Assembly: GCF_002563635.1 (NCBI RefSeq)
Contig: NZ_PDIZ01000001.1
Span: 1,488,001-1,552,000, forward strand
Reading direction: 5' to 3'
Origin: Bacillus sp. es.036
GTDB taxonomy: Bacteria > Bacillota > Bacilli > Bacillales > Guptibacillaceae
Length of the DNA stretch: 64,000 nucleotides
Below are positions 5,015 to 57,060 of the stretch, one piece after another. Both the position numbers and the translations under genes were made by a program. The notes under the pieces were generated by a model. That model was not told where the DNA came from and made no database searches. It saw nothing but the letters and a program-made list of their open reading frames with translations. Within the stretch, counting starts at the first letter, position 1, and the number at the start of each line of letters is the position of its first letter.

Positions 5015-5049
5015 TGCAGAAAAAAGCATTTCTAGCACAGAAGTTTGCT

Positions 5050-5120
5050 CACTCATAGTCGGATCATTTACGGTGAACCGGTAGAAACTTGCAAGCCATA
5101 TTCTTGCGGTTATATGAGTG
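5050..5120 (-). promoter_or_regulatory. purine riboswitch aptamer (guanine/xanthine class)
   Basis: Read on the minus strand, the closing stem runs CACTCATATA...TATGAGTG. It has the conserved P2 hairpin (GCAAG...CTTGC), the core GTTTCTACCGG, the loop CCGTAAAT and the junction CCGACTATG. The base before TATG that sets specificity in this class is C, which fits guanine/hypoxanthine rather than adenine. It precedes xpt-pbuX, the known regulon position. Confidence 0.95.
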
Positions 5121-5146
5121 ATGATGTTCATAAGGTTATGAATGGT

Positions 5147-12532: not shown

Positions 12533-12642
12533 CTCTTATCAAGAGTGGCGGAGGGAATAGGCCCTATGATGCCCGGCAACCTTTCAACTTCAGTTGAAGC
12601 TGGTGCCAAATCCTACAGATGATGTCATCTGGAAGATAAGAG
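12533..12642 (+). promoter_or_regulatory. SAM-I (S-box) riboswitch
   Basis: The closing helix is CTCTTATC (12533-12540) with GATAAGAG (12635-12642). Inside are the conserved S-box elements AGAGTGGCGGAGGGA, GGCCCTATGATGCCCGGCAACC and GGTGCCAAATCC. It sits in the leader of a homocysteine S-methyltransferase gene, a typical S-box target. SAM binding is expected to favour the downstream terminator. Confidence 0.97.
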
Positions 12643-54995: not shown

Positions 54996-55108
54996 TCTTT
55001 CCTTCTACTCATAAAGTGAGCCACCAATCCCCGATAGCAATACGGTTGACATAGCATGGTAATTAGAAAGAAAATATTTAACAATCACATTTTTGGAGGT
55101 TGCAACGG

Positions 55109-55183
55109 ATGAATCCCTCATTTCCATTCCCTCCCGTTACCCAATCGCACCTTAAAACGATAGGTAGATCGAACAATAATTAG
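55109..55183 (+). CDS. candidate 24-aa small ORF
   Basis: ATG at 55109 has a good ribosome site (TTGGAGG, 9 bases ahead) and the ORF ends at TAG 55181-55183. The peptide begins MNPSFPFPPVTQSHLK. A TTGACA at 55048 could be a -35 but no -10 fits. It may be a tiny protein or the start of a lost gene. Confidence 0.3.
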   Translation: MNPSFPFPPVTQSHLKTIGRSNNN

Positions 55184-55232
55184 GTTTATTCTTTTTTTCA
55201 AAAAATGAGTCGTGTCACGAGAATAGTTTTGC

Positions 55233-55238
55233 TATAAT
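55233..55238 (+). promoter_or_regulatory. extended -10 promoter of attenuated MFS operon
   Basis: TGCTATAAT gives a consensus extended -10 (TATAAT 55233-55238). The -35 is weak, but a partial palindrome CGTGTCACG (55211-55219) lies there. Confidence 0.65.
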
Positions 55239-55269
55239 TTCTCTTAACTAATTGAAGGGAGAAGGTAAT

Positions 55270-55323
55270 ATGTTAAAAATTCTGGAGCTAATGTCAATAC
55301 ACAGGAGGGACGAATGGCTTTAA
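55270..55323 (+). CDS. 17-aa leader peptide of the MFS attenuator
   Basis: ATG 55270 follows GAAGGGAGAAGG and the ORF ends at TAA 55321-55323. The peptide is MLKILELMSIHRRDEWL. Codons 11-14 (His-Arg-Arg-Asp) form the 5' arm of the hairpin at 55301-55343. A second tiny ORF (Met-Ala-Leu-Met, 55313-55327) with its own AGGAGGG overlaps the end. The layout fits ribosome-stalling leaders that control drug-efflux and ribosome-protection genes. Confidence 0.6.
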   Translation: MLKILELMSIHRRDEWL

Positions 55324-55379
55324 TGTAAATGACTCCCTCCTGTCTTTCCATTATCAGAACTTACAATGAAAGTTGGAGG
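55301..55379 (+). promoter_or_regulatory. translational attenuator with two competing hairpins
   Basis: Structure A: ACAGGAGGGA (55301-55310) with TCCCTCCTGT (55334-55343), 10 perfect pairs. Structure B: CCTCC (55336-55340) with GGAGG (55375-55379, the MFS Shine-Dalgarno) plus CTTTC (55344-55348) with GAAAG (55368-55372). A and B share CCTCC, so they exclude each other: A frees the ribosome site, B hides it. No U-run follows A, which favours translational over transcriptional attenuation. Confidence 0.6.
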
Positions 55380-55382
55380 ATC

Positions 55383-56585
55383 ATGTCTTCATTATCAACA
55401 CGTAATCTGACCCTATTGTTCTGGGTACACTTTTTTGGAACGATTAGTTTCTTACAGCCCGTTTTAACCTTATTTTATATAAAAAATGGATTAAGTGAGG
55501 CAAACATTCTTGTTCTTTTAATATGCTGGAGCGGTGCTGTATTAATAGGAGAAATTCCAACAGGTGTTTTCGCAGATCGGTTTGGTGCTCGAGTGTCATT
55601 TCTAACAGGTTCCATTATTAAACTAAGTAGTATTGGTATCCTTTTACTTGCTAATAGCCTCGAAATGTTTATGCTATTTAGCGTTTTAAACGGATTATCG
55701 GTTACTTTTTTCTCCGGAGCGGACGAAGCGCTAATATACGAGTCATTAAAAAAAGATAATAAACAGCAAAAAATGGATGAAGCTATGGGCAAAATCCAAT
55801 CAGCAGGGTTTATCGCTATGATGATCGCTGTTCTGTTTGGCTCATTTTTTGCAAGAGACCTTGAACAAGAACAGTTTCAGCTGCTGATTCTATTAAGCAT
55901 GGTCTCCTATATCGTTGAATTCGTTCTTTTGCTCTTTATTCAGGAGCCTTCTGGTAAAGTGAGTATACCCGGAACTTCGATCGAAAATGTTTTGGAAGGT
56001 GTACGAGTGATAAAACAAGCACCGCGGCTTTTAGTTATGTTTTTGAACGTAACACTCGTCTTTATCCCAACAGTTGCGGTTTTTGAGAAATTTGACCAAC
56101 CTCTTATGATCGGTTCAGGACTTCCGGTATACTTTATCGGACCAGTTTACGCCGTAGGTGCTTTACTCGCATTCTTTTCTTCAAGAAGTATCGGTATGTT
56201 AAATAAAAATCTTTCTTATTCAGTTTTAATGTACACGTCCGGTCTTCTTTCCGCTTTCGGACTGTTGTTGGCTGCTCTATTTCAAAATCAGCTATGGATA
56301 ATTTTGTCCATGGTATTGTTTTTAAGGTGGGTTGGTGCTATTCGCTATCCGATCTATTCCAAGTTAAGCAACAACATCATTCCATCTCATGTAAGAGCGA
56401 CAACGATCTCACTCCTATCTATACTTGACTCGTTATTTGACCTAGTGATTTTTTTGTTATTAATTTCTTTTGCTGCGGAAGGTATTCAGGGTGTTTTATT
56501 TGGCGGAGCAGCGGTAGCCCTAATTGGATCATCACTTCCAATTCAGCAACGAGAGAAATTGCGCTCCAGCCCGATAAATCGGTAA
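55383..56585 (+). CDS. MFS efflux-type transporter
   Basis: 400 aa from the ATG at 55383, 3 bases after TTGGAGGA; the frame is open upstream to 55329 but through the attenuator. About 12 membrane segments. Loop 2-3 motif GVFADRFGARVSFLTG and motif C-like segments fit drug:H antiporters. The protein resembles Mef-like or uncharacterised Firmicutes drug pumps in outline. Its leader suggests induction by a ribosome-targeting compound. Substrate unproven. Confidence 0.8.
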   Translation: MSSLSTRNLTLLFWVHFFGTISFLQPVLTLFYIKNGLSEANILVLLICWSGAVLIGEIPTGVFADRFGARVSFLTGSIIKLSSIGILLLANSLEMFMLFSVLNGLSVTFFSGADEALIYESLKKDNKQQKMDEAMGKIQSAGFIAMMIAVLFGSFFARDLEQEQFQLLILLSMVSYIVEFVLLLFIQEPSGKVSIPGTSIENVLEGVRVIKQAPRLLVMFLNVTLVFIPTVAVFEKFDQPLMIGSGLPVYFIGPVYAVGALLAFFSSRSIGMLNKNLSYSVLMYTSGLLSAFGLLLAALFQNQLWIILSMVLFLRWVGAIRYPIYSKLSNNIIPSHVRATTISLLSILDSLFDLVIFLLLISFAAEGIQGVLFGGAAVALIGSSLPIQQREKLRSSPINR

Positions 56586-56810
56586 ATAAATTTCCAGAAT
56601 GGTTTGCAATTTAGAAGTGCCGGTGCTATTATATATTTAAACCATTTTACTATTAATATATTTAGGATTTAAATTAGCTGTAGCTTCGAAAGAGGGTAAC
56701 AAAGTTAAATCCTCTTCCAAAAGTTGCAGTTTTTTAATGTAAACGTATTACAATGGTAAATGGTGAATTTTAAATTATGTACGATGAGGTACATTAGGAG
56801 GCAATTTTTT

Positions 56811-57011
56811 ATGCAAAACGGTAAAGTAAAATGGTTCAACGCTGAAAAAGGTTTCGGTTTCATCGAAGTTGAAGGTGGAGACGACGTATTCGTACACTTC
56901 TCTGCAATCAACGGCGAAGGTTTCAAAACACTTGACGAAGGCCAAGAAGTTAACTTCGAAATCGTAGAAGGTAACCGCGGACCACAAGCAGCTAACGTAA
57001 CAAAAGCATAA
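56811..57011 (+). CDS. cold-shock protein, CspA family
   Basis: 66 aa single-strand nucleic-acid-binding beta-barrel. RNP1 is KGFGFI and RNP2 is VFVHF. The start at 56811 has TTAGGAGGC ahead; an upstream in-frame ATG (56760) is in the leader. The gene has a 50-plus-base AT-rich leader, common for csp genes. It acts as an RNA chaperone. A strong terminator follows. Confidence 0.95.
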
Positions 57012-57018
57012 ATCGCTT

Positions 57019-57060
57019 TACAAGCCCCCGACGAAACTTTCGTCAGGGGCTTGTTTATTT
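57019..57060. terminator. bidirectional terminator after csp
   Basis: CAAGCCCCCGACGAA/TTCGTCAGGGGCTTG (57021-57035, 57039-57053), with one mismatched pair, then T-rich. Confidence 0.9.

Follow-up and report, generated by a model that had tools for sequence, protein, structure and literature searches.

A conserved leader ORF with two competing RNA pairings precedes an MFS transporter gene in Bacillota and may act as a translational attenuator of inverted sign

In the window (the whole 64,000-nt stretch of DNA analyzed), the gene of a likely efflux transporter of the major facilitator superfamily (MFS) is preceded by a leader ORF and by three RNA arms, of which the central one (B) can pair either with arm A, inside the leader ORF, or with arm C, which contains the Shine-Dalgarno site of the MFS gene (Table 1). 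This regulatory leader is real and widespread; its general kind, ribosome-mediated translational attenuation, is ordinary, while its proposed inverted logic and its breadth are unusual. On balance, we favor the reading of a translational attenuator similar to those of tet(K) and tet(L), in which translation of the leader would repress the pump and early stalling would induce it.

Table 1. Leader region and MFS gene: features and their positions within the window.
Feature	Positions	Strand	Basis or remark
Extended -10 promoter element (TG, C, TATAAT)	55230-55238	+	Sequence; TTTGNTATA in 13/13 genus upstreams (alignment)
Shine-Dalgarno region of the leader, GAAGGGAGAAGG	55254-55265	+	Anti-Shine-Dalgarno duplex score -11.2 kcal/mol
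Leader ORF, 17 codons, MLKILELMSIHRRDEWL, GAAGGGAGAAGG ahead of it	55270-55323	+	Leaders of 15-18 codons in 13/13 genus MFS upstreams
Arm A (leader codons 11-14), partner of arm B	55301-55310	+	Sequence and pairing tests
MALM mini-ORF	55314-55328	+	Judged incidental; ATG in 4/13 genus genomes, MALM in 2/13
Arm B, anti-Shine-Dalgarno-like	55334-55348	+	55334-55343 with A; 55336-55340 and 55344-55348 with C
Arm C, GAAAGTTGGAGG, contains the MFS Shine-Dalgarno site	55368-55379	+	GAAAGTTGGAGGA identical in 13/13 genus rows; pairs with B
MFS transporter gene, 400 aa, probable drug efflux	55383-56585	+	Pfam MFS_1, E 9.9e-22

The original prediction, made from the letters of the window, had described an extended -10 promoter, a 17-codon ORF with a ribosome site, a 10-bp hairpin with its 5' arm in codons 11-14, and an alternative pairing of the 3' arm with the MFS Shine-Dalgarno plus GAAAG, and all of these parts were found in place. 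The promoter element was absent from the list given by a generic promoter scan. The two sides of the A:B hairpin are 100% complementary over its 10 bp and lie 23 nt apart, and the B:C pairing consists of two 5-bp helices flanking a small internal loop, in which CCTCC of arm B faces GGAGG (55375-55379) and CTTTC faces GAAAG (55368-55372). Since the whole 154-nt stretch folds no more stably than shuffled sequences (z -0.43; 61 of 200 shuffles as stable), the case rests on conservation. Regarding the single pairings in the window, A:B was unusual with respect to shuffles (z -3.35) and B:C alone was not (z -1.06), while the two together were matched by none of 100 shuffles.

The window genome belongs to the Pseudalkalibacillus group, and its closest named orthologue among the best 80 of 96 loci, which constituted the named collection used here, was that of P. 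hwajinpoensis AmN0-1 (95% protein identity). The MFS gene was present in 13 of the 14 genus genomes searched, and the leader in all 13. Recurrent features across the genus were the promoter element, the ATG, the motif M-[LS]-[KN]-[IN]-L, arms A and B, and GAAAGTTGGAGGA before the gene. For A:B, 90.7% of cells in the genus alignment paired and the covariation score was reached by 6 of 500 shuffles; both-sided changes occurred in 2 of its 10 pairs, which was not above shuffles (211/500 reached the same). For B:C, 96.2% of cells paired with zero both-sided changes, and this pairing is conserved within the genus, not covarying. The RNAalifold consensus of the genus kept A:B and added a weak hairpin joining the gene's site to CUUUC (covariation term +0.3). 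The overlapping MALM frame, which had been put forward as a second leader, was rejected, as an ATG stands at that place in just four of the 13 genomes (MALM in the window genome and in G008, MTLM in G009 and MTLI in G004) and in none of the other nine. Arm A also serves as a ribosome site for MALM (55314-55331), and the MALM stop adjoins an ATG (55329) in frame with the MFS gene, giving an 18-residue extension; an ATG is found there in 7 of the 13 genus rows.

An RNA model built for the genus (R1) recovered the 13 genus leaders and one other from 397 genomes of the order. As this model recovered little outside the genus, orthologues were sought by protein, and 65 of the 397 genomes contained one of the MFS protein at E < 1e-40. 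The 106 upstream regions examined comprised 13 from the genus, 73 from the named collection and 20 further ones from the order; genus duplicates (L086-L092), order upstreams recurring in the named set, the partial G100, and L019 (with the same upstream as L109 and L110) were left out. A leader ORF with a strong ribosome site was found in 84 of these regions across Bacillota, one of them (L145) assigned by hand, and the remaining 22 were without leader. Leader-bearing taxa included Halobacillus, Sporolactobacillus, Rossellomorea, Virgibacillus, Peribacillus, Planococcus, Thalassobacillus and Ectobacillus. The anatomy was a poor fit for a few of these leaders (L154, L156, L158 and L163), and 77 of the 84 passed joint energy limits for A:B and B:C at the loosest setting. 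When 355 genes from the window and the 80 named loci were scanned, two passed two looser energy limits, both of them MFS leaders (the window's own and L143), in a scan that mainly gauges the rarity of such ORFs, since a qualifying leader ORF was present in just three of the 355 genes. No Rfam family (release 15) reached its gathering score over the leader, either in the window or in the 20 named loci (of 80) searched. In a tree of 73 proteins, from which the short L153 was excluded, the leader label (57 with, 16 without) required 6 changes vs. a shuffled mean of 14.8, and nine leaderless rows formed a single clade with a support of 100/100. An old leader, lost in few lineages, would fit this tree, the root of which is not fixed. 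In Virgibacillus chiguensis (L157) arms B and C were apparently kept and no leader ORF was found, possibly representing a decayed leader. A literature search, mainly of open-licence papers, gave no paper on this leader among the matches listed, which does not by itself establish absence in print.

In order to compare the pairings among leaders, arm B was taken in each of them to be the segment pairing best with the gene's ribosome site, and arm A the segment pairing best with B. Removal of near-identical B arms reduced the 84 leaders to 75 for the swap and shuffle tests, and to 74 for the ribosome-position folding, upstream-arm and T-run tests. Arm A lay within the leader ORF, or up to 6 nt beyond its stop, in 74/74 representatives, and A:B was predicted to be stronger than B:C in 83 of the 84 leaders (medians -21.8 vs. 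-16.0 kcal/mol). When arms were swapped between species, A:B decreased in strength (own -22.0 vs. swapped -15.8), own arms beating the swapped mean in 74/75 leaders both by row and by column; the same trend was observed for B:C (own -16.0 vs. swapped -13.3), with own arms better in 68/75 by row and 65/75 by column. Both pairings were jointly matched by at most 5% of shuffles in all 75 leaders, and in 72 of them by summed energy. The pair table, with pairs picked by energy in 67 of the 74 leaders (seven outliers left out), contained several kinds of base pair both between B and A (B positions -6 to +9) and between B and C (0 to +13); the loop-side flank of B varied along with A, and its 3' flank along with C. 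In a fixed-register test (70 of 74 leaders, four left out; kinship not removed), either A:B stretch was reached by none of 5000 permutations and the first part of B:C by 12, and the far B:C flank was unsupported (2540/5000). Among the controls of this test one was null (3205/5000), and one A:B stretch meant as a control was positive (5/5000). A MAFFT alignment of 59 diverse leaders put arm B in the wrong place and was set aside; scripts were used for the pair table and the swap tests. With regard to covariation among homologous leaders, proposed in advance as a check on both pairings, A:B appears well supported and B:C moderately supported by these comparisons, the latter lacking both-sided changes inside the genus.

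Because A:B frees arm C and B:C hides it, the sign of the switch was decided by the cost of opening the gene's site for each position of a ribosome on the leader, using a model in which a ribosome was parked at each leader codon and the RNA folded at equilibrium, kinetics being ignored. Across the 74 leaders, the median cost of opening the MFS site was 3.9 kcal/mol both in the free RNA and with the ribosome at codon 1; it fell to 2.6-2.9 for codons 3-7, then rose to 4.8 for codon 8 and to 7.4-8.8 for codons 9-16. The cost was higher for late than for early positions by >1 kcal/mol in 70/74 leaders, and higher for late positions than for the free RNA, by the same amount, in 65/74. The difference between codons 12 and 4 exceeded 1 kcal/mol in 69, 67 and 69 of the 74 leaders with three footprints (median 5.0), compared with a median of -0.01 in shuffled leaders, 57/444 of which were above 1; values of at least 5 kcal/mol were reached by 37/74 natural leaders vs. 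0/444 shuffles. Similarly, by pairing probability, the median open fraction of the site fell from 0.38-0.40 with a ribosome at codons 3-6 to 0.14-0.16 with one at codons 9-18, and the late fraction with respect to codons 1-3 was lower by >0.05 in 53 leaders and higher in three of the 74. Exceptions were G012, with no effect (-0.3, -0.0), and L163, with a reversed one (-1.0). For ermC and cat the expected sign is opening by the stalled ribosome, and the model reproduced it: the cost decreased from 6.0 in the free RNA to 1.2-1.9 at codons 8-16 for ermC, and from 16.3 to 2.0-2.6 at codons 4-6 for cat. In tet(K) the cost was 2.4 free and 6.2-7.2 at codons 8-13, and in tet(L) it was 1.5 in the free RNA, dropped to 1.1 at codons 5-7 and reached 4.1-4.5 at codons 9-13. 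A ribosome at the start codon gave the same median as the free RNA (3.9 each), the individual costs being 5.1 for the window, 5.7 for G009 and 3.8 for tet(L). By this prediction, a stall at the start codon would repress the gene less than late occupancy does, but would not open it the most.

It is in this direction that the original prediction of erm/cat-type control did not stand. A leader ORF and mutually exclusive pairings are widely conserved, as that prediction implied; however, with arm A covered by a ribosome the gene would be shut, since A then cannot hold B off C. Covering the second half of the leader, which had been expected to free the start, raised the cost of opening the site instead (high from codon 9 on, lowest at codons 3-7). 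The window's own copy showed a small difference (about 1.3-1.7 kcal/mol), vs. 6-7 in the near-identical leader of G009, and its site cost 4.4 to open even when the leader was free. By pairing probability the window showed no switch, the probability of an open site being 0.16-0.19 with the ribosome at codons 1-5, 0.16-0.18 with it at codons 9-16, and 0.07 in the free RNA. Its minimum-energy fold places the ribosome site in a local helix with the first codons of the MFS gene. Given this weak effect, the mechanism is argued from the family, not from the window copy alone.

Under the proposed mechanism, the strong ribosome site would keep the leader ORF steadily translated, and ribosomes in its second half would block the pairing of arm A, so that arm B would pair with C and the pump would not be made. 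If ribosomes stalled no later than about codon seven, or failed to load, arm A would be left free to form A:B, the stronger helix, thus releasing arm C and allowing translation of the pump. Likely inducers would be drugs halting ribosomes at or soon after initiation, e.g. tetracyclines, pleuromutilins and lincosamides, as drugs that act at initiation would prevent ribosomes from reaching the second half of the leader; the inducers of VmlR are described as acting at initiation (PMC9226507). What weakens the case for an inverted attenuator is that a start-codon ribosome equals free RNA in the model, and that the RNAalifold consensus partly hides the site despite A:B.

Among 81 distinct leaders, the peptide showed no clear stall motif beyond M-x-K and Ser9 (Lys at codon 3 in 70/81, Ser at codon 9 in 39/81), and no shared run of one amino acid's codons. 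A stall peptide was considered, as these two residues stand out, and rejected: codons 2-7 favor CAA, AAA, ACA, CTA and TTC, a choice that may reflect selection on the RNA. Codons 2-7 of these leaders are poor in G and end in A at a frequency of 0.60 vs. 0.24 in the MFS genes, suggesting that this stretch is kept unpaired. Compared with the usage of the MFS genes themselves, some A- and C-rich codons are strongly preferred there, with CTA for 31 of 73 Leu, CAA for 56 of 57 Gln and AAA for 90 of 93 Lys. A wider proposal, which we put forward tentatively and rate at somewhat short of an even chance, is that of a Bacillota-wide NOT-logic switch, in which leader translation would keep a chromosomal efflux pump off, and any drug or stress that halts ribosomes by about codon seven, or keeps them off the leader, would turn the pump on, largely whatever the peptide, with arm A mimicking the ribosome site of the pump. 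If this were true, many Bacillaceae and kin would hold a pump triggered by loss of leader translation, not by a peptide-specific stall, and several drug classes could act via one leader; it would also suggest that resistance-gene leaders split into two opposite logics, separable from sequence by ribosome-position folding.

The tet(K) and tet(L) systems resemble the present one in having a leader ORF, a strong ribosome site and a downstream MFS efflux gene. Their sign in the model, read from a single tet(K) and a single intact tet(L) record, is also the one found here: the site is cheap to open in the free RNA or with the ribosome around codons 4-7, and costly once the ribosome has moved beyond about codon 8. 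Differences were also found: the window protein has no clear homology to Tet(K) (BLASTP against a 295-aa Tet(K) stretch, E 0.033, 20% identity over 153 columns), and in tet(K) the automatic arm search chose weaker arms (-9.1 and -5.9 kcal/mol). The tet(L) leader peptide is reportedly involved in inducible expression, and 14 helices are predicted for Tet(K) and Tet(L), according to statements in PMC9387203. The tet(L) leader of an Enterococcus gallinarum plasmid (L169) contains an early in-frame stop, and an intact leader was found in another record. In the leader of B. subtilis anti-TRAP (rtpA), as in the mechanism proposed here, complete translation represses and an early stall derepresses, but it does so through the steric block of the terminating ribosome and Trp codons, without competing arms.

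We regard erm/cat-type attenuation, in which the MFS start would be exposed by a ribosome that a drug has stalled in the leader's second half, as quite unlikely. Although the leader ORF with its ribosome site and the mutually exclusive helices that bear on the gene's own site are all present, as in ermC and cat, Ser is frequent at codon 9 (39/81 distinct leaders), and the inverted effect predicted for the window itself is weak, the sign was opposite by >1 kcal/mol in 69/74 leaders in the same model in which both controls behaved as expected. Moreover, in the four-arm scheme of ermC the first arm lies upstream and pairs with the second, and this scheme was rejected for want of an upstream partner of arm A (median z 0.23; 5/74 leaders below -2). 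An origin of the conserved sequence without regulation, in which the anti-Shine-Dalgarno-like arm B would pair any purine-rich site by chance, agrees with a shared core that is largely CUCC and GGAG, able to pair any ribosome site, and with the window B:C alone falling inside the shuffle range (z -1.06); it is contradicted by the shuffle and swap tests and by the absence of the anatomy from every non-MFS gene among the 355 scanned, and we consider it highly improbable. Transcription attenuation, in which A:B or another hairpin would be an intrinsic terminator under leader translation, as in vmlR, is very unlikely as well. Six or more T in 8 nt were present near the foot of A:B in 11/74 leaders, but the window has at most three T in 8 there, its stretch 55100-55500 contains nothing resembling a terminator, and in most leaders arm B pairs close to the ribosome site of the gene; a terminator in the leader was rejected. 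The vmlR, bmrCD and msrD leaders share with the present one a uORF that senses ribosome inhibition; according to PMC9226507, VmlR is induced by initiation stalling and the three act through transcription attenuation, whereas no terminator was seen here.

The leader could also sense translation capacity or nutrient supply in general, and not antibiotics; the transporter, whose substrate may be a metabolite, would then be induced by whatever empties the leader of ribosomes. The sign in the model depends on leader occupancy alone, no peptide motif but M-x-K and Ser9 was found, early codon choice looks nucleotide-driven, and a uORF of S. meliloti is read as a monitor of ribosome availability in PMC12218461. 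We nevertheless find this reading unlikely, considering that the best solved match of the family profile is the efflux pump NorA, that tet(K) and tet(L) have the same sign, and that the leaders share no common run of one amino acid's codons. In that S. meliloti system (DUF1127), tetracycline relieves a repression that depends on uORF translation (PMC12218461), but the system acts on transcription, presumably by Rho. In E. coli toiL-topAI, PMC12121999 reports that tetracycline relieves a repression arising from uORF RNA pairing with the target site; unlike in the attenuator favored here, the uORF RNA itself masks the target, so a ribosome on the uORF frees the site directly.

The MFS protein is likely an efflux transporter. 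Its family profile matched solved structures weakly, with NorA as the best (E about 3e-4), and the single sequence gave nothing at E 0.01; NCBIfam matches (HP1165 family, TetA(P)) were far under their cut-offs, and a scan for defence families gave no match. In two genus genomes the MFS frame contains a stop and the leader is kept (L013/L016 in G011, L014/L015 in G006). Elsewhere in the window, Rfam matches were obtained for a purine riboswitch (5036-5137, - strand), a SAM riboswitch (12533-12642, + strand), and a cspA-type thermoregulator (56734-57056, + strand) over the cold-shock gene located directly 3' of the MFS gene.
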